Below the pieces are notes generated by a model. The model saw only the letters and a list, made by a program, of their open reading frames with translations, was not told the origin of the DNA and searched no databases. 41,123 nt of DNA, taken from the NCBI GenBank assembly GCA_025057135.1, contig JANWXY010000032.1:1-41123 (forward strand). Reading direction: 5' to 3'. The DNA comes from Bacteroidia bacterium. GTDB lineage: Bacteria > Bacteroidota > Bacteroidia > SpSt-205. The translations under genes were made by a program, and so were the position numbers. This document shows, one piece after another, positions 3,758-21,693 of the stretch (its first letter is position 1; the number at the start of each line of letters is the position of its first letter).

Positions 3758-3810
3758 GGCCTCTAAAAACTAATGAGGCCCCCGAGCGACCGGTCATATC
3801 GGTTGTCTCG
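3758..3810. terminator. two stem-loops between convergent ccmC and fba
   Basis: First stem GGCCTC/GAGGCC (3758-3763 with 3775-3780, loop of 11 nt). Second stem 3783-3810 pairs CGAGCGACCG-like arms around a 7-nt loop with one bulge. Neither is followed by a T run, so a terminator role for the convergent genes is only suggested by position. Confidence 0.35.
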
Positions 3811-3843
3811 AGAGCCGCTGTCTGATTTAGATATGCCGTTGAG

Positions 3844-4929
3844 TTAGGCGACTGTGATTTTTTCCTCTAAATAGACTGCTTGTACCGCCCGAATGATAGC
3901 TATACCTTCTTCCATGGGTCGTTGGAAAGCTTTGCGTCCTAAAATGAGCCCCATACCACCAGCCCGCTTATTTATGACCGCTGTACGGACAGCTTCGGCT
4001 AAGTCTGATTGCCCCGAAGAGGCACCGCCAGAGTTAATGAGTCCTACGCGTCCCATGTAGTTATTTATGACTTGATAGCGGCACAAATCTATGGGGTGGT
4101 CGGTCGTGAGCTTATCATAAACCTTACTGCTGGTTTTGCCGAATTTCAGTGCATTGTAGCCGCCGTTATTTTCTGGGAGCTTCTGCTTGATGATATCGGC
4201 TTGGAGGGTAGCGCCGAGATGATTGGCTTGACCGGTGAGGTCCGCCGCTAAATGATAATCTTTATCAGCATTGAAGGCCTTATTTCGCAGGTAGGTCCAG
4301 AGGATAGTGACCATGCCCAGCTCATGGGCATAGGCGAAAGCTTCGGCGATTTCCTGAATCTGACGGCTGGACTCCTCTGAGCCGAAATAGATGGTCGCGC
4401 CTATGGCCACCGCCCCCATGTCCCAAGCTTGCTTGACAGTTCCAAAGAGAATTTGGTCGTATTTATTGGGATAGGTGAGGAGTTCGTTATGATTGATTTT
4501 GACGATAAAGGGAATCTTGTGGGCATATTTGCGGGCGACACTTCCCAGCACGCCGAATGTAGAAGCGACGGCATTACACCCAGCTTCCAGCGCTAAGCGA
4601 ACGATGTTTTCAGGGTCAAAGTACATAGGATTTGGAGCAAAGGACGCTCCTCCAGAATGCTCTACCCCTTGATCCACTGGAAGGATTGATACATAACCAG
4701 TCCCACCAAGTGCCCCGTGAGAAAGCAAGGCTTGCATATTACGAAGCACCTGTGGCGGACGATCGCTATGCACCCAAACGCGGTCAATAAAATCGGGTCC
4801 CGGTAGATGAAGCTGTGTCTTGGGTATAGTTTGAGAGACGTGGTTCAAAAGGCTTTCTGCTTCATCGCCCAGGAGAGTTACGATGTCGTTGTATGACTCT
4901 ACGGAACGAATAGCTGCTGTCGTAGCCAT
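3844..4929 (-). CDS. fbaB: class I fructose-bisphosphate aldolase (FbaB/DhnA family)
   Basis: A 361-aa Schiff-base aldolase of the archaeal/bacterial DhnA type, which cleaves fructose 1,6-bisphosphate into dihydroxyacetone phosphate and glyceraldehyde 3-phosphate (or the reverse). Recognisable blocks are [20 protein letters not shown] (substrate loop), [33 protein letters not shown], the Lys-containing stretch [11 protein letters not shown], and the phosphate-binding C-terminal [14 protein letters not shown] and [15 protein letters not shown]. Length fits E. coli FbaB (350 aa). The ATG is 4 nt after the metK stop, so it is probably cotranscribed with metK. An overlap in function with class II aldolases cannot be judged here. 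Confidence 0.92.
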
Positions 4930-4933
4930 AGAC

Positions 4934-6235
4934 TTATCGGTTAGATAAGGTTTCTTTGACAGAAAAGGCTTCGCGAAGCCGTTCCACCTGGTCTAACTTT
5001 TCCCAAGGGAAGGTTTGAGCCTTACACTTCTGGTGGATATAGTGCTCTTGGGGACCGTCTGGTGTCTGCTCGACTCGGAGGGAAACTTGTTCGTAAGAGA
5101 TTACCTCCGGTTGGCGTCCGAGATGCCCATAAGCGGCTGTGGGACGATAAATAGGCGCCTGCAAACCCAAATGTTCAATAATCGCCGCTGGACGAAAATC
5201 AAAAAGCCGAAGCAGCTGCTGCGCAATCTCTCCATCGCTGAGTGGGACATTAGCGGTGCCGTAGGTATTCACGTATAGGGCTACGGGGTGGGCTATACCG
5301 ATAGCGTATGCGACTTGGATGAGGACTTCATCAGCGATACCCGCAGCCACGAGATTCTTTGCGACATAGCGGGCCATGTACGCAGCGCTTCTATCTACTT
5401 TCGTAGGGTCTTTTCCTGAAAAAGCTCCACCCCCGTGAGGTGCTCGTCCTCCGTAGGTATCCACGATGATTTTCCGTCCGGTGAGCCCAGTATCTGCATG
5501 GGGTCCGCCGAGTACGAAGCGCCCCGTAGGATTCACAAAAAGGCGAGTGTTTTCATCCAGCATTTCTGCAGGCAATACCCGCGGCAAAAGGATGGTTCGA
5601 ATGTCCTCCTCTATCTTTTTATGCATCGTCCGCCAGTCAGATGCGAACTCCTCATGCTGCGTGGAGAGCACAATCGTATGCACCCGCAGGGGGCGACCAT
5701 CATCCGCATATTCCACAGTCACCTGGCACTTTGCATCGGGGCGTAAGTACGGCATGAGGTGAGGCTCACGCTTACGAATGTGAGATAACTCTCGCAGAAG
5801 TCGGTGAGCATAAGCTATGGGCATGGGCATGTACTCTTCGGTTTCGCGAGAAGCGTAGCCGAACATCATGCCCTGGTCCCCAGCTCCCAAATCTGGGTCC
5901 AGTCCCTGTCCGCGATTGACGCCGAGGGCGATGTCGGGCGATTGTCGGTGGATAGTGACAATCACACCGCAGCTATCCGCATCAAAGCGAAGCTCAGAAC
6001 GGTTATACCCGATCTCCCGAATAGTTTGCCGAGCTATCTCCTCGTAATCTACACGAGCAGTAGTAGTAATCTCACCAGCGAGAACTACCAACCCAGTAGT
6101 TACGAGCGTTTCACATGCCACTCGGCCATACGGGTCCTGCGCTAATATAGCATCCAGCACAGCATCTGAAATCTGATCTGCCACCTTATCTGGATGCCCT
6201 TCGGATACGGACTCAGAGGTGAAAAGGTATGACAC
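4934..6235 (-). CDS. metK: S-adenosylmethionine synthetase
   Basis: Makes S-adenosylmethionine from methionine and ATP in the cytoplasm. The 433-aa protein has [17 protein letters not shown] at residues 9-25 (ATP binding), [12 protein letters not shown] in the first third, and the glycine-rich P-loop [19 protein letters not shown] in the C-terminal half. It is about 50 residues longer than E. coli MetK because of insertions, as in many Bacteroidota. I choose GTG 6235 ([10 protein letters not shown]), which matches the family N-terminus and lies 5 nt after a CATATTTG box; the in-frame ATG at 6274 would overlap the divergent gene. Followed at 4 nt by the aldolase gene. Confidence 0.95.
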
Positions 6236-15280: not shown

Positions 15281-15766
15281 CTATAAGGGCGGTTTGAAAA
15301 GCTCAAAAGCTTCACCACAGCTATGACAACGAAAAATAGCTCGGCAAGCCGTGGGACCGAATGGAGAAGACAAACTGACTGCCTCAGACCCACACCGAGG
15401 ACAGCTGACCTCCGAAAGCATTTCGGAAGGGTCAGGCGAGAGCTTCTTGGGGATAGCAAAGCCCGCTCTTCGGAGAGCTTGCCACCCCGCTGGGCTCATA
15501 TCTTCTACGCGCCAAGGACGGTCGTAACGAACTTCTACTTTTGCTTCTAAGCCTCGTTCTCTGAGGAGGGTTTGTATCTGAGACTGGAGAAGCTTGATGG
15601 CAGGACAGCCCGCAAATGTCGGTATAAGCTCCACAGACACCTGACTATCAGAGACTTTTATCTCTCCTATCATCCCCATATCTACCACCGATACGTGAGG
15701 TATTTCAGGGTCAGGTACAGTCCTGAGCCATTCCCGGATGGAATCTGCCGACACTTGGAGGCTCAT
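15281..15766 (-). CDS. paaD: phenylacetyl-CoA epoxidase subunit PaaD (PaaJ)
   Basis: PaaD is needed for assembly of the iron centres of the phenylacetyl-CoA 1,2-epoxidase (PaaABCE). The 161-aa protein has an N-terminal MIP18/DUF59 domain (residues about 8-85) with VPDPEIPHVSVVDMGMI and the cysteine at 54 in PTFAGCPAI, then a C-terminal zinc-ribbon with Cys122/Cys125 (SCPRCGS) and Cys147/Cys150 (RCHSCGE), exactly the PaaD architecture. ATG 15766 overlaps the stop of the arsC-like gene by 4 nt, so it is translationally coupled. It is the last gene of the operon; paaE does not follow, the next gene being mnmA after a 200-nt gap. Confidence 0.93.
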   Translation of the reverse strand: MSLQVSADSIREWLRTVPDPEIPHVSVVDMGMIGEIKVSDSQVSVELIPTFAGCPAIKLLQSQIQTLLRERGLEAKVEVRYDRPWRVEDMSPAGWQALRRAGFAIPKKLSPDPSEMLSEVSCPRCGSEAVSLSSPFGPTACRAIFRCHSCGEAFELFKPPL

Positions 15767-16158
15767 ATAGACTCAGCGAAGGAGATGGCCCACAAGCGAA
15801 TCGCCTCTCTGACTTGCCGGAAGTTTTCTATATCCCCTTGCGAAGGGTCAGAGAAGCTCACATGAACATGGTGCTCAGCGGGTACATAAGGACATGCCTC
15901 TCTGGCGTGATCACAGACGGTAATCACATAATCCCACTTTTCGCCGAGATATTTTTGAATGGGGTCAGAAGTATGGGTAGAAATATCGTGTCCTGCCTCT
16001 TTCATGACGGCTTGGGCTAGGGGATGCACGCCCCTTGGCTCTGTACCGGCACTACGCACTTCTGCTTTATCACCCAAAAAATGTCGGAGATAAGCTTCAG
16101 CGATTTGGCTACGAGCACTATTGTGAGTGCAGACTACCAGTATGCGTTTCTTTACCAT
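15763..16158 (-). CDS. ArsC-type thiol arsenate reductase / low-molecular-weight phosphatase-fold protein
   Basis: A 131-aa protein of the thioredoxin-coupled arsenate reductase family, built on the low-molecular-weight tyrosine phosphatase fold. The P-loop is CTHNSARSQ with Cys10; the redox pair is Cys82 and Cys89 (VCDHAREACP), and the SDPS motif supplies the catalytic Asp. These positions equal those of the well-studied Staphylococcus ArsC. The P-loop reads CTHNSA rather than CTGNSC. It lies inside the paa operon: its ATG overlaps the paaC stop by 7 nt and its stop overlaps the paaD start by 4 nt. No ArsR, ArsB or Acr3 is near. So it may be an ordinary detoxification gene that moved in, or a thiol/phosphatase partner of the epoxidase; the second is inference. 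Confidence 0.88.
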   Translation of the reverse strand: MVKKRILVVCTHNSARSQIAEAYLRHFLGDKAEVRSAGTEPRGVHPLAQAVMKEAGHDISTHTSDPIQKYLGEKWDYVITVCDHAREACPYVPAEHHVHVSFSDPSQGDIENFRQVREAIRLWAISFAESI

Positions 16159-16916
16159 TCTGCATCGGGGTCAGCGGAGGAGACTTCCGTCATCTCAGCG
16201 TACAGCTCGTCAAAATATGGGCTTCGGAGCCCATGTCGTCCCCCACGCATGGGCAGGAGAACATCCTCAGATGGGAAAGTTGGAGCGAGGTTTAGGCTCT
16301 CTAAAATAGGCATAACTTTTTCCAGCCAACGCTGCCTCAGCTCAGACGAAGGTGGAAGCCATCCAGCTTCTACCATTTCGGTTTCCATAGGTAGCTCTTC
16401 AAATACCATCCATGCATACGGGAAAAGCTGGTCTATAGCGCTGCGTAAGCGAAAATGTGCCTCTTCGGTAGAACGCCCAAGCCGCCGAATCCAAGTATGG
16501 GCATGCATCCAGTGGTACTTCTCCTCTCTGAGTAAGCGCTCCGCTAAGCCAGCAAGTGGCTCATAGCTACTCTGTCGGAGCGCTTCCAACCGCACCTGTT
16601 CTGCTGCATCATGGAAAAAGTGGCGTACAAGAGCCATAGCGTAATCGTAGTCGAAATTTGGCAGCTCTACTAAGTGCGCACTGCGAAACTGAGAAGCGGA
16701 GCGCTTGAAGGCATACTCATCTGGGGTTGGCAGTCCCAAATCTGTCAAAAGCTGATAATATGCTTGAGCATGCCCAGTTTCATCCTGAGCTATGGAAGCA
16801 AAAGCAATGTCTTCCTCCAAAATTGGGCCCAGCCCTATCCATTCCGCTTCACGATGCCCTATCAGGAGATCATCATCGGCGAGAGACAGCAGGAGGATTT
16901 CTAAGGCTTCAATCAT
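16152..16916 (-). CDS. paaC: phenylacetyl-CoA epoxidase subunit PaaC
   Basis: The structural, ferritin-like partner of PaaA in the phenylacetyl-CoA 1,2-epoxidase. 254 aa, all helical. The family signature is DDDLLIGHREAEWIGLGPILEEDIAFASIAQDETGHAQAYYQLL-type (residues 14-57, with Glu46 and His49), followed later by LREEKYHWMHAHTWIRRLG. Length matches the family (about 250). ATG 16916 overlaps the stop of paaB by 4 nt. Catalytic iron is thought to reside in PaaA; PaaC makes the supporting heterodimer. Confidence 0.95.
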   Translation of the reverse strand: MIEALEILLLSLADDDLLIGHREAEWIGLGPILEEDIAFASIAQDETGHAQAYYQLLTDLGLPTPDEYAFKRSASQFRSAHLVELPNFDYDYAMALVRHFFHDAAEQVRLEALRQSSYEPLAGLAERLLREEKYHWMHAHTWIRRLGRSTEEAHFRLRSAIDQLFPYAWMVFEELPMETEMVEAGWLPPSSELRQRWLEKVMPILESLNLAPTFPSEDVLLPMRGGRHGLRSPYFDELYAEMTEVSSADPDAEW

Positions 16917-17296
16917 GGATTGGCAGGTTTGAGACGGTCGCGATACTTTTCTATGCGCTCCCGGGTATGGAGGTAGCCTTGAGGTTCGCGGTAGCTTTTA
17001 TCCGTAGCGGGCTGAAAAATATCCTCTTCCTCGGGACGCGTCCATAGGATAGCTGCGGTTGGCACCACCCAGAGAGCGACACACGGGCTCCTCCGAGCAT
17101 ATTGTTCTTTCGCAAGGATAAGAGCCATCTCATCATTTGGCGCATGGAGGGACCCCACATGCTGCGCATGTCCTCCACGCGTGCGCAGAGTAAAGACTTC
17201 GTAGGTCTGCCAGTGCTCCAATGGCTCTAAGGGGCGAGTAGAAAATCGCCATAGGTCTGGCTCCGCCCGCCGAATCCGTGGGTCCAGAGAACTCAT
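16913..17296 (-). CDS. paaB: phenylacetyl-CoA epoxidase subunit PaaB
   Basis: A small bridging subunit of the phenylacetyl-CoA epoxidase. The core YEVFTLRTRGGHAQHVGSLHAPNDEMALILAKEQYARR followed by ALWVVP and the closing DKSYREPQGY is the complete PaaB domain (residues about 28-108), quoted here as motifs along the chain. At 127 aa it is longer than the usual 95 because of a charged N-terminal extension of about 25 residues and a C-terminal basic helix. The ATG shares one base with the paaA stop (TGATG), and its own stop overlaps paaC by 4 nt. Confidence 0.93.
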   Translation of the reverse strand: MSSLDPRIRRAEPDLWRFSTRPLEPLEHWQTYEVFTLRTRGGHAQHVGSLHAPNDEMALILAKEQYARRSPCVALWVVPTAAILWTRPEEEDIFQPATDKSYREPQGYLHTRERIEKYRDRLKPANP

Positions 17297-18291
17297 CAGG
17301 CCAAAGGAGTTACATACTTAGCTTCAGGCGAACGGAGGGCGTCACGCACCCATCGCCCCTTTTCCTCAGCAAAGCGACGCACCGCCAAGCGCTCTTTATT
17401 ACAAGGACCATTTCCATTGATGACTTGCCAGAATTCGTCCCAATCAGGATCGCTGTATTCCCATCGTCCCGTCTCAGGATTCTTACGCAGGTTAGGATCA
17501 GGTATAGATAATCCCAGCTCCCAAATCTTCGGGACATACATGTCCAAAAACTGCTGACGCATCTCGTCATTGGTAGCAAGCTTGACTTTCCATCTGACGA
17601 GCTTCTCCGTATGAACTGACTGGGAGTCTGGTGGGCCGAAAAAGTGCATGAGAGGTTTCCACCAGCGATTGAGGGCATCTTGGAGCATCGCCCGCTGACG
17701 GGGGGTACCAGTAGCGAGATAGACTACGCTATCATAGCCATATTTGAGGTGAAAAGACTCCTCCCAGCAAATCCTCTCCAAGGCCCGAACATATGGACCA
17801 TATGAGCCTTTGGAGTTAGTGGTTTGGTTAATGATAGCCCCTGCATCTACCAGCCAAGCTATGACTGCGGTATCAGCCCAAGTTTTCGCTGGATAGTTGA
17901 AGATATTGGAGTACTTGGACTTACCAGAGAGAAGGTCATTAATCATCTCCTCGCGAGACTTGCCAAGCGTTTCTGCCGCACTATACAGGAGCTGAGCATG
18001 GCCTACTTCGTCCTGAACCTTAGCCATGAGGGCAAGTTTTCTTCGGAAATTAGGCGCTCGGGTGATCCATGTACCCTCGGGGAGAGCACCGATAATCTCA
18101 GAGTGCGCGTGCTGCTCTATCAGCCGAATAAGCTGTCGCCTGTACTCAAAAGGCATCCAATCTTGGGGCTCTATTTTCTCTCCACGATCAATGCGAGCCT
18201 CAAACTCTGCGATTTTTTGAGGGTCCTCCTCGTGGACTTTCTTGCCCCAGTTTTCTATGTCCTCTGGACGAATGGTAAGGTTTCCGTACAT
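17296..18291 (-). CDS. paaA: phenylacetyl-CoA epoxidase catalytic subunit PaaA
   Basis: The di-iron oxygenase subunit that epoxidises the aromatic ring of phenylacetyl-CoA. In the 331-aa protein the ferritin-like di-iron ligands are visible: Glu65 (HAHSEIIG), Glu95 and His98 (DEVGHAQ), and Glu178 with His181 ([13 protein letters not shown]). The first residues [11 protein letters not shown] match the family. I place the start at ATG 18291: it lies 4 nt after an exact TATATTTG box; the in-frame ATG at 18309 lies upstream of or within this promoter and should be untranscribed. It heads the operon paaA-paaB-paaC-arsC-like-paaD, all overlapping by 1-7 nt. Confidence 0.95.
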
Positions 18292-18295
18292 GAGG

Positions 18296-18303
18296 CAAAT
18301 ATA
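18296..18303 (-). promoter_or_regulatory. -7 box TATATTTG of the paa operon
   Basis: Exact TAnnTTTG followed by CCTC and the ATG of paaA (18291). Leaderless mRNA predicted for the five-gene operon. Confidence 0.7.
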
Positions 18304-18305
18304 CG

Positions 18306-18328
18306 ACATTTTTCAATCTTCCAAATGT
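18306..18328. promoter_or_regulatory. candidate operator: inverted repeat ACATTT-N11-AAATGT
   Basis: A 6-bp inverted repeat immediately upstream of the paaA -7 box (arms 18306-18311 and 18323-18328), extended by CGA/TCG with a one-base bulge. Its place over the -13 to -35 region suits a repressor or activator site for the paa operon, but such short repeats also arise by chance. Confidence 0.25.
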
Positions 18329-18472: not shown

Positions 18473-19963
18473 TCAAAGAAAGCTTTGCAGCTTCATCGCA
18501 GTACTCATGTCTCCTTTGACCCTAATCTTGCCAGCCATGAAAGCACTCATCGGGTTGAGCTCCCCTTTCAAAAGGGCATACATATCTTCGGGCGATATCT
18601 GGATCGTGCATGATGTCTCACGGTCGTCTTCACTGAGGATGTTTTTTCCAGAGGTACCGTCAATGACCAGCCGACGCACTCCGAAGTCAAACTTTATGCT
18701 CCCCTCCAACGGGCGCTCTGCTGCTCTGGCGCGAAGGTGAGTTATGATTTCCTCAACTATGGCATCGGTTCTATGTCCATTAGACGACACAGCAGGAGAC
18801 TTAGGCGGTTCGTAGGCTTTGTCGTCTATGAGCATCTTGGCGATAATCTCGCGCATGATTTCCGAAGTCCCCCCGCCTATTGTTAGAATGCGGACATCTC
18901 GATAGACCCGTGCTACCTTGTAGTCTTCTATGTACCCGTATCCACCAAACATTTGTAAGCACTCATATGCAGCTTTATTCGCCAGTTCGGTAGTGAGTAA
19001 CTTGGCGATAGAACATTCCCGCACCGCATAATGCCCATCGTTATGTAGGCGGCTGCAGTAATACACATATTCTTTCAGCACCTCGCACTCTGCATGAAGC
19101 TGAGCCATGCGATGCCGCAGAACCTGAAATTTATTGATAGGACGACCGAAAGCCTGCCGTTGAGCCATGTATTCAAGGGTATAAGCGATGAGATGTTCCA
19201 CCCCAGCGATGGTACCTATCGCCCCGACCAACCTTTCAAGCTGAAGCCCTTCCATGAGATAAAAGAACCCCTGCCCTTCCTCTCCAATCAGATTGGTAGC
19301 GGGCACCTTGACATTTTCAAAAAATAGCTCAGCCGTGTCAGAGGCATGCCAGCCGAGTTTATTGAGCTTATTTTTAGTGATGCCTGGGCTATCAAGGTCC
19401 ACTACGATGAGCGATATTCCGTGAATACCAGCCTCAGGCTTTGTCTTGACCACGAGAACTACATAATCGCCATAATACCCATTAGAGATGAAAGTTTTCT
19501 GCCCATTTATGATGTAATGATCACCTTGACGCACAGCGCGAGTCTGAATGTTCGCCACATCTGAACCTGCGCCAGGCTCGGTAATTCCGATAGCTGAAAT
19601 CATCTCGCCTCGGATGACGGGAACGAGATACTTCTGCTTCAGCATCTCGGAGCCGTACTTGTAAATGTAGGTGGAAGACATGTACTGTGTAACCGTTGGG
19701 ATGACACCGAAGCCTCCGGAAAAAACTTTGGATATCTCCTCACAGAATACGACCGTGTAAAAGAAGTCTAATCCAGCGCCCCCATATTCTGGCGGATAAT
19801 GCAGCCCTAAAAAGCCCTGCTCTCCGAACTTTTTCCAGAGGGATTTGGGCACCTGCTGCTGCATCTCCCACTCATCAATATAAGGGATAACCTCCTTCTC
19901 TAAAAACTTGCGCAGGGTATCTCTGAACATTTCATGCTCTTGGGTAAAGTAGTACGATTTCAT
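18473..19963 (-). CDS. acyl-CoA dehydrogenase with C-terminal SCP2 sterol-carrier domain
   Basis: A 496-aa protein. Residues about 1-385 are a complete FAD-dependent acyl-CoA dehydrogenase: KSLWKKFGEQGFLGLHYPPEYGG, AIGITEPGAGSDVANIQTRA (FAD/substrate), YIINGQKTFISNGYY, RQAFGRPINKFQVLRHRMA, MFGGYGYIEDYKVARVYRD and the closing RILTIGGGTSEIMREIIAK. After a linker with PPKSPAVSSNGH, residues about 395-496 form an SCP2 domain (ARAAERPLEGSIKFDFGV, then ELNPMSAFMAGKIRVKGDM and AMKLQ). SCP2 binds fatty acyl-CoA or sterol-like lipids; fused to the dehydrogenase it may hold or present bulky acyl chains. Its ATG overlaps the acyl-CoA synthetase stop by 4 nt. The fusion is the odd feature. Confidence 0.88.
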   Translation of the reverse strand: MKSYYFTQEHEMFRDTLRKFLEKEVIPYIDEWEMQQQVPKSLWKKFGEQGFLGLHYPPEYGGAGLDFFYTVVFCEEISKVFSGGFGVIPTVTQYMSSTYIYKYGSEMLKQKYLVPVIRGEMISAIGITEPGAGSDVANIQTRAVRQGDHYIINGQKTFISNGYYGDYVVLVVKTKPEAGIHGISLIVVDLDSPGITKNKLNKLGWHASDTAELFFENVKVPATNLIGEEGQGFFYLMEGLQLERLVGAIGTIAGVEHLIAYTLEYMAQRQAFGRPINKFQVLRHRMAQLHAECEVLKEYVYYCSRLHNDGHYAVRECSIAKLLTTELANKAAYECLQMFGGYGYIEDYKVARVYRDVRILTIGGGTSEIMREIIAKMLIDDKAYEPPKSPAVSSNGHRTDAIVEEIITHLRARAAERPLEGSIKFDFGVRRLVIDGTSGKNILSEDDRETSCTIQISPEDMYALLKGELNPMSAFMAGKIRVKGDMSTAMKLQSFL

Positions 19964-21693
19964 GGCTGTATGTTTTTTTGAGTGTGAGATTCAGATATCC
20001 AGAGGATTTTTCCTGGACGAGATAGCCACTCCTCATAATATGGGGAGTAGCGTTTATCTATTTCGCGTCGGCGCACCTTGAGAGTGGGGGTGAGCAGGCT
20101 ATTCTCTATGCTCCATACCTCGTGAAGGAGGACTGCTTTCGCCAGCTTTTGATAGGTGGGCAAAGGGTGATTTACACTCTGCATCACTTCCTCCACAGCG
20201 CGCTCTACTTCACCGGGCTCGGCTTTCTTTCCTAACTCTGATAAGGTCAGAAGTACAAAAGGCTGTACTTGCCCAAGTCCCACCACGCAGACTTGATCTA
20301 CGAAAGGCAGCTTCCCAAAAGGCTCTTCAAGCGGTGCGGGCACAACGAACATGCCCTTCGCTGTTTTGAAAGCATCGCTAACTCGTCCAGTTATTTTCAG
20401 GAAGCCCTCTTCGTCTATCTCGCCTGTGTCACCGGTATGAAGCCATCCATCGCGCAAAACCTCAGCTGTTTTCTGAGGCTCCTTGTAGTATCCGCTCATA
20501 ATCCAGTCAGCCCACATCAGGACCTCGCCTGTACTTTCATCTATCTTTAGCTTGACACCCGTCAGGGGCTTGCCGACGGTGCCGAGCTTATTTCTATTCT
20601 TAGGCATGACCGTACAGCCGGCGCAGTTTTCAGTCATAGCATATACATCCCTAACATAAATTCCCAACTCCTGAAACCAAACTTTGACGGCATCGGGAGT
20701 CTGAGCCGCACCTGTAAGGGCAAGTTCTACCTTGTTTAGTCCTAACCTTCTGCGTATGAGACTTTTGACAAGCGTACCGAGGAGGGGCGTACGGATGAGC
20801 CGATTGTAGCGCTCCTCTCCGCCAAACCGCTCCAGGACAGCCAGTCGGAACCGCTGCCAAATCCGAGGAACGCCAAAAAAGAAGGTTGGTTGCGTTTCCT
20901 GTAAGTTTTTCGCAAAGGTCTCTAAGGACTCGGCAAAAGATATCGTTCCCCCCAAACAAAGGCAACCTAACTCTATAGCGAGACGCTCAGCAATGTGGTT
21001 CAGTGGCAGATATGAGAAAAAACGGCCCTCACTCAAGTTGAATAGGCCTATTTCGCCGTATCGCAGTTCATGTTCCAGAAAGCGCGCAGGGGAAAGGTAT
21101 TTCAGCATTACGCCTTTGGGTGTGCCTGTCGTACCAGAAGTATATAGAATGGTCCAGAGGTCCTCCCGAGTGGGTACATACGCTTCTTTGAGGGGCTCAT
21201 GATGCCGAATAAGCTCATCCCATGCATGCCCATCTCGTATTTGAGAGCTCCCTGGGTAGTCTGAAAACCGAATGATCTGGATATGCGAGGGGACCACATG
21301 CCGAACTTTATCCCAATATCCAAGGTCTAATTTTCCAACGAATAGGTGGGTAATTTCGCTCTTTTCCAGAACGGTACGTAGGTCTTCGGGGGCTAAGTTT
21401 GCATAGAAAGGTACTGACACAGCCCCGCACATTAGGATAGACAAGTCCGCTAAAATCCAGTGATAGCAGTTTTTGGACAAGATGCCCACCAATGACCCTT
21501 TCTGTACATTCATGTGGCGAAGGGCATTAGCGATGCGTCTGGCTTGGTCCCCTGCCTCTCCCCAGGTCAGCGTCCGCCAAGTATTACCATAAGGCTGGCG
21601 CAGAAAGACCTTCTGGGGAGTTTCTGCCTCCCACTTATAGAAGAAATGTAAGTGAGTGGGTAGCAGTTCAGTCTGCTGCTTCGGCGTAGGCAC
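19960..21693 (-). CDS. long-chain-type acyl-CoA synthetase (AMP-binding family)
   Basis: Activates a carboxylic acid to its CoA thioester through an acyl-AMP. 577 aa. Motifs: P-loop YTSGTTGTPKGVM (residues 184-196), SYLPLNHIAERLAIE, the VYAMTENCAG A5-type motif, GWLHTGDTGEIDEEGFLKITGR (hinge and ATP binding), and the C-terminal TPTLKVRRREIDKRY. The layout is that of bacterial long-chain fatty acid ligases (FadD15-like), not of the shorter phenylacetate-CoA ligase PaaK. GTG 21693 is chosen: it lies 4 nt after an exact TAAGTTTG box. The gene overlaps the acyl-CoA dehydrogenase-SCP2 gene by 4 nt, so the two enzymes probably act in sequence on the same acid. Confidence 0.92.
   Translation of the reverse strand: MPTPKQQTELLPTHLHFFYKWEAETPQKVFLRQPYGNTWRTLTWGEAGDQARRIANALRHMNVQKGSLVGILSKNCYHWILADLSILMCGAVSVPFYANLAPEDLRTVLEKSEITHLFVGKLDLGYWDKVRHVVPSHIQIIRFSDYPGSSQIRDGHAWDELIRHHEPLKEAYVPTREDLWTILYTSGTTGTPKGVMLKYLSPARFLEHELRYGEIGLFNLSEGRFFSYLPLNHIAERLAIELGCLCLGGTISFAESLETFAKNLQETQPTFFFGVPRIWQRFRLAVLERFGGEERYNRLIRTPLLGTLVKSLIRRRLGLNKVELALTGAAQTPDAVKVWFQELGIYVRDVYAMTENCAGCTVMPKNRNKLGTVGKPLTGVKLKIDESTGEVLMWADWIMSGYYKEPQKTAEVLRDGWLHTGDTGEIDEEGFLKITGRVSDAFKTAKGMFVVPAPLEEPFGKLPFVDQVCVVGLGQVQPFVLLTLSELGKKAEPGEVERAVEEVMQSVNHPLPTYQKLAKAVLLHEVWSIENSLLTPTLKVRRREIDKRYSPYYEEWLSRPGKILWISESHTQKNIQP

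Follow-up and report, generated by a model that had tools for sequence, protein, structure and literature searches.

An acyl-CoA dehydrogenase fused to an SCP2 domain in Bacteroidia and its possible place in an Atu-like pathway for branched isoprenoid acids

Introduction

A close counterpart of the genes considered here is the acyclic terpene utilisation (Atu) route of Pseudomonas, whose published set comprises the AtuC/F carboxylase, the AtuE hydratase, the AtuH synthetase, the AtuB/G dehydrogenases and the AtuD dehydrogenase; experimental proof of this route outside Pseudomonas was first reported in 2016 (PMC4847356). Geranyl-CoA carboxylase (GCC) and methylcrotonyl-CoA carboxylase (MCC) are distinguished, according to Jurado et al. 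2015, by a Gly in place of Phe191 and by the absence of a three-residue insertion before that position, both being marks of GCC, and swapping the Phe191/Gly residue shifts activity between GCC and MCC substrates (PMC4673880). Pseudomonas LiuE is reported to act on the isohexenyl substrate as well (PMC4097962), and the beta-keto acid cleavage enzyme (BKACE) converts a beta-keto acid and acetyl-CoA into a shortened acyl-CoA and acetoacetate (PMC6365646). In mammals, SCP2/SCPx is needed for the breakdown of phytanic acid, which accumulates upon loss of the Scp2 gene (PMC9602805).

Here we describe a gene that joins an acyl-CoA dehydrogenase (ACAD) to an SCP2 domain in a hot-spring bacterium of the class Bacteroidia. 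It lies in a window of 41,123 nucleotides, which is the whole stretch of DNA analysed (contig JANWXY010000032.1, assembly GCA_025057135.1).

Results

The fusion gene and its protein

A single open reading frame with an ATG start encodes one protein of 496 amino acids, with the following features.

18473..19963, minus strand: ACAD:SCP2 fusion gene, 496 aa (open reading frame, Pfam, same architecture in relatives)
18830..19945, minus strand: acyl-CoA dehydrogenase part, residues 7-378, of the long-chain/isovaleryl-CoA dehydrogenase (LCAD/IVD) type (Pfam; 2pg0 and human LCAD nearest in the PDB)
19235..19237, minus strand: codon of Glu243, predicted catalytic base at the LCAD/IVD position (alignment to the human LCAD Glu)
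18767..18820, minus strand: linker, residues 382-399, variable and of low confidence (alignment of fusions; pLDDT)
18476..18766, minus strand: SCP2 domain, residues 400-496 (PF02036, own HMM, AlphaFold2, Foldseek)

The dehydrogenase part is complete, with the Pfam domains Acyl-CoA_dh_N at residues 7-120 (2e-35), Acyl-CoA_dh_M at 124-218 (5e-23) and Acyl-CoA_dh_1 at 230-378 (1e-42), all above their cut-offs, which places the protein in the ACAD family. PF02036 matches residues 432-496 (profile positions 44-100) with 54.1 bits and an E-value of 2e-14, the curated cut-off being 21.3 bits, so that the domain search proposed in an earlier note on this DNA returns all four families above threshold. 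The Pfam match covers the second half of SCP2 only; the complete domain, of about 97 residues from approximately 400 to 496, was delimited with our own family HMM, built from eight fusions, and with AlphaFold2, and the order of its elements is that of the SCP2 type (helix, strands, two helices, strand, helix). On its own, the domain was modelled with a pLDDT of 90, and Foldseek matches its fold to SCP2 of rabbit and human and to the SCP2-like part of MFE-2 (1c44, E-value 2e-7, probability 1.0; 1ikt). The open reading frame, Pfam, our HMM, AlphaFold2 and Foldseek thus agree with the complete dehydrogenase and C-terminal SCP2 domain that the note had recognised.

The linker, at residues 382-399 approximately, is short and differs in length and sequence among the relatives in an alignment of 15 fusions, and residues 386-399 have a pLDDT below 50 in the full-length AlphaFold2 model, as would be expected of a flexible tether. 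This model, made with 15 sequences, is informative for the domain limits and the linker only; confidence is low in the last ACAD helices (358-384), and so it is for the orientation of the SCP2 pocket towards the active site. The core motif of SCP2 is kept across the fusions, while the first half of the domain varies, as the linker does.

Both by sequence and by fold, the closest solved relatives of the dehydrogenase part are 2pg0 from Geobacillus and human LCAD, with identities in the fold alignment of 48% and approximately 39%, respectively. Glu243 aligns with the Glu of human LCAD that reads Gln in chain 8w0z and is invariant in the 15 aligned fusions; where MCAD-type enzymes have their base (MCAD position 376), the window protein has Gly364 and the fusions have Gly or Ala. 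In LCAD and IVD, whose substrates are long or branched acyl-CoAs, the Glu at the equivalent position is the catalytic base. We therefore predict from the alignment that Glu243 is the catalytic base, located on helix G, of a dehydrogenase of this type.

Distribution and origin of the fusion

The survey of frequency and lineages that the note had called for found the fused gene in 21 of the 395 Bacteroidia genomes of our class sample, distributed over nine genera; the 21 include one genome with the gene cut by a contig end (G535) and one with an irregular ACAD part (G673). Records with the fusion include Thermonema rossianum and metagenome-assembled genomes (MAGs) of Saprospiraceae and Chitinophagales. 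An assembly artefact is excluded, since 20 more genomes of the class sample, as well as named records (for instance that of T. rossianum), have the same architecture. The fusion is a genuine and conserved feature, though a rare one. Within the genus of the window, the search detected it in six of 11 genomes, and a seventh (G001) carries the gene cut by a contig end. A phylum-wide sample, also of 395 genomes, yielded no additional fused open reading frame at the threshold used, and all the fusions found belong to Bacteroidia. Outside Bacteroidota, no fusion was seen among the 80 best genome-contig loci of a non-exhaustive scan based on a single motif. In the contig scan, a single C-terminal sequence used as query gave no match, and an alignment query retrieved the fusions. 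We met no ACAD-SCP2 fusion in the open literature searched, which does not prove that it is undescribed.

In the phylogenetic tree, all 26 fusions form one group (support 98/99), which indicates a single origin, and their neighbours are unfused ACADs from some of the same clusters. Several Bacteroidia have an unfused sister ACAD next to the fusion (L045:6539-7741, L047:9820-11013, L060:8327-9493 and L071:213-1376), with an identity of about 52% in the pairs compared; the two may catalyse consecutive reactions or assemble into a mixed tetramer. In two genomes (G581 and G509), a stand-alone SCP2 gene directly follows the fusion (L205:1029-1328 and L208:1949-2248), giving two SCP2 domains per locus.

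The note had also held that SCP2 usually occurs alone or, in eukaryotes, in fusions. Fusions are not confined to eukaryotes: in MAG loci of Desulfobacterota and Proteobacteria, MFE-2-like proteins (MaoC, SDR and SCP2) stand beside proteins that combine KASIII-like, ChsH2-type OB, SDR and SCP2 domains (L124:859-2976 and 3798-5879; L126:5421-8150; L103, L117, L122 and L128), the latter protein having 909 aa in several loci. In Holophagaceae/Geothrix, single proteins contain two or three domains of the SCP2/alkyl-sulfatase-C type (L131:7842-9053 and L129:5542-7512), and a 527-aa protein of Myxococcales (L078:6612-8195) has SCP2 at its C-terminus and about 420 residues lacking a Pfam match.

Gene neighbourhood in the window and in relatives

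Two features of the window adjoin the fusion.

19960..21693, minus strand: acyl-CoA synthetase, AMP-binding and long-chain-ligase-like (Pfam/NCBIfam, synteny)
15281..18309, minus strand: paaA-paaB-paaC-(ArsC/LMW-PTP-like)-paaD, phenylacetyl-CoA epoxidase genes (NCBIfam equivalogs), neighbours not counted as part of the system

The synthetase gene lies upstream of the fusion and overlaps it by 4 nt (ATGA, 19960-19963). It is the only neighbour kept beside the fusion in all the genus members read (G001, G002, G003, G007, G009 and G010), and it is also found there in Thermonema, so that the coupling to an acyl-CoA synthetase seen in the window extends to its relatives.

The operons of relatives explain the function of the fusion better than the window does. 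In T. rossianum (L055) and in two members of the window's genus (G009, L044; G007, L046), the gene order is carboxyltransferase (CT), biotin carboxylase (BC), enoyl-CoA hydratase (ECH), BKACE, SDR, synthetase and ACAD:SCP2, where the SDR, ECH, BKACE and synthetase assignments score below the NCBIfam equivalog cut-offs. The same operon is present from BC onward in G001 and from BKACE onward in G003; in G021, G013 and a Saprospiraceae locus (L065), the carboxyltransferase stays with the fusion, and in L058 an extra aldehyde dehydrogenase and a further SDR stand beside the synthetase and the fusion. In the window's own genome (G000), these genes are distributed among three contigs, with CT-BC-ECH on C76, BKACE-SDR on C52 and synthetase-ACAD:SCP2 on C55, the contig of the window; this genome also has an HMG-CoA-lyase-like protein. 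Within the genus, each of the seven genomes with the fusion has BKACE, and the four without the fusion lack it. A reading of the relatives' neighbours as Liv-type ABC transporter genes was wrong, since Pfam identifies them as carboxylase, hydratase, BKACE and SDR.

In the window, paaC and paaD are separated by an arsenate-reductase/LMW-phosphatase-like gene with overlapping ends (15763-16158, minus strand). It follows paaC in seven of the ten paa-bearing genomes of the genus, paaC being followed directly by paaD in G003, G006 and G010, and it has no obvious role in phenylacetate catabolism.

The carboxyltransferase signature and its co-occurrence with the fusion

The carboxyltransferases of six genomes or loci (G000, G009, G007, G021, G013 and L065) have the Gly and lack the insertion, and thus carry both marks of GCC, while Phe and the insertion are found in the leucine-type, MCC-like paralogue (C62) of the window's genome. 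The best PDB match of the signature segment is the GCC beta subunit 5ikl, aligned without gaps, and the GCC pattern was found in all 30 of the best loci of the class.

In the class sample, the carboxyltransferase is present in 20 of the 21 genomes with the fusion and in 27 of the other 374 (Fisher p ~9e-20); counted by genus, the values are 9/9 and 15/188 (Fisher p ~1e-9), and both p-values are too small because the genomes are related. The genus-level count is still telling despite this kinship. One genome (G010) has the fusion and no GCC-type carboxyltransferase. The total of 47 carriers among the 395 sampled Bacteroidia (loci L168-L192), together with the GCC signature of all 30 loci read, points to carboxylation of the isoprenoid type as a possibly widespread trait of Bacteroidia.

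Discussion

A candidate pathway for beta-methyl-branched acids

Several independent lines of sequence evidence point to an Atu-like pathway, and we consider it somewhat probable (roughly 0.55) that the fusion is an LCAD/IVD-type dehydrogenase with a tethered SCP2 carrier acting on beta-methyl-branched (isoprenoid) acids in such a pathway. This reading is favoured by the operons of relatives, the GCC signature, the co-occurrence, the BKACE profile of the genus, the LCAD-type base and fold, and the HMG-CoA-lyase-like protein. The substrate, the order of the steps and the acyl-carrier role of SCP2 are inferred. The coupled synthetase would form the acyl-CoA, and the SCP2 domain would hold or collect the hydrophobic chain near the enzyme, keeping it soluble and possibly presenting the acyl-CoA to the dehydrogenase, as the note had proposed. 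The ACAD, with Glu243, would produce the 2,3-enoyl-CoA, a geranyl-CoA-carboxylase-like enzyme would carboxylate the beta-methyl group, and the hydratase would then add water. Cleavage by an HMG-CoA-lyase-type enzyme would yield acetyl-CoA and a free beta-keto acid, which would give BKACE its place in the operon, since this enzyme could convert the acid and acetyl-CoA into a shortened acyl-CoA and acetoacetate. The SDR may aid unsaturated or alcohol/aldehyde steps.

Long isoprenoid acids are attractive as substrates because of the build-up of phytanic acid upon loss of mammalian Scp2, and microbial mats would be a source of phytol and similar chains. As a tentative extension, Bacteroidota of hot springs and elsewhere could have adapted the acyclic-terpenoid route, in a form not described before, to long isoprenoid acids such as phytol-derived C20, with a first dehydrogenase that has its own carrier and with BKACE resolving the beta-keto acid left by the lyase.

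Some observations count against an Atu-like role. The genes are scattered in the window's genome, and G010 has no carboxyltransferase of this type; the route does not require SCP2, given that 27 sampled genomes have the carboxyltransferase and no recognised fusion; the GCC signature may be characteristic of the lineage; and the unfused sister ACAD of some clusters could be the true dehydrogenase of the step. Four of the companion assignments fall below equivalog level, as stated above, and AtuA (PF07287) was found in none of the 11 genomes of the genus, an absence weakly shown, as the control set has none either.

Alternative explanations

The fusion could instead be an ordinary LCAD of straight-chain beta-oxidation, with SCP2 as an incidental tail for solubility or stability and the carboxylase nearby through shared neighbourhood ancestry. 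Its closest solved relatives are indeed generic LCADs, the synthetase resembles generic long-chain ligases, and the first half of SCP2 and the linker are variable; yet the core motif is retained across the fusions, the GCC-type carboxylase is linked or co-occurs in all nine fusion genera, and BKACE follows the fusion within the genus, which makes this explanation unlikely. Within an Atu-like setting, SCP2 could also serve mainly as a module for docking to the membrane, the synthetase or the carboxylase, in keeping with the flexible tether and with the synthetase as its invariable partner throughout the genus. This we judge distinctly improbable, given the canonical fold and core motif of a family known to bind ligands, and no docking interface was identified.

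SCP2 can bind sterols, and the side chains of steroids, too, are methyl-branched acyl-CoAs, so that the breakdown of sterol-like or bile-acid-like side chains deserves mention. The annotated genes of the window and of the related operons include no steroid-catabolism gene, ring degradation included, and to our knowledge the carboxylase route is absent from steroid side-chain degradation. The conserved partners belong to a route of beta-methyl carboxylation, which leaves sterol-like acids unsupported and very unlikely; the note had suggested long, bulky or sterol-like substrates, and a bulky or branched acyl group fits the LCAD/IVD-type site and the GCC-signature carboxylase. An IVD of leucine catabolism (Liu) would share the type of catalytic Glu, and the Liu enzyme classes include an MCC-family carboxylase, a hydratase and an HMG-CoA lyase. 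However, the carboxyltransferase beside the fusion lacks Phe191 and the insertion, both found only in the C62 paralogue, and we know of no role for BKACE or a long-chain-type synthetase in leucine breakdown; the leucine pathway was rejected on the GCC signature and has very little probability left. Participation in phenylacetate catabolism would draw on the position of the fusion, on the same strand and 163 nt upstream of paaA in the window. This linkage is local to the window, since in other genus members paa lies on another contig than the fusion or at a distance of about 19 kb from it, and ten of the 11 members have paa, those without the fusion included; membership of the phenylacetate operon was therefore rejected as extremely unlikely.

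Implications

Our results suggest that, in this hot-spring bacterium, the fusion starts the breakdown of fatty-acid-like molecules, which are likelier to be terpene-type acids, such as those of plant or algal pigments, than sterols. If this is true, Bacteroidota would have a distinct, conserved version of the route that points to who degrades phytol and isoprenoids in microbial mats; BKACE would gain a concrete role in an isoprenoid route; and the fusion would offer a thermostable, single-chain system for the old question of whether SCP2 hands acyl-CoA directly to a joined enzyme.

Comparison with known systems

LCAD and isovaleryl-CoA dehydrogenases have the same fold, domains and position of the catalytic Glu as the dehydrogenase part of the fusion, but not its C-terminal SCP2. 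SCPx (thiolase-SCP2) and MFE-2 (SDR-hydratase-SCP2), which are linked to branched-chain acyl-CoA in mammals, also join a beta-oxidation enzyme to a C-terminal SCP2. In the fusion, which is bacterial, the partner opens the beta-oxidation spiral, and Pfam detects an ACAD in the window protein and neither a thiolase nor an SDR-hydratase. In Bacillota (Sulfobacillus and MAGs; L087, L094 and L097), ACAD and SCP2 likewise stand side by side, the SCP2 gene lying between those of the ACAD and a thiolase, but as separate genes and with an ACAD from another clade; L090 has the same order with a broken ACAD frame. These triplets, an unfused equivalent of SCP2 fusions, independently indicate that SCP2 and ACAD act together.

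The Liu pathway of leucine and isovalerate has the same reaction logic, whereas the carboxylase here has the GCC signature and not that of MCC. The Pseudomonas Atu system, in which AtuD is the citronellyl-CoA dehydrogenase, has the same enzyme classes as the relatives' operons, namely a GCC-type carboxylase, a hydratase, a synthetase, an SDR and an ACAD. These companions, with the GCC alpha subunit, occur together in L055, L044 and L046 and are present but dispersed in the window's genome. In contrast to Pseudomonas, the dehydrogenase here carries SCP2, BKACE is present, the genes of the window's genome are dispersed, and the hosts belong to another phylum.
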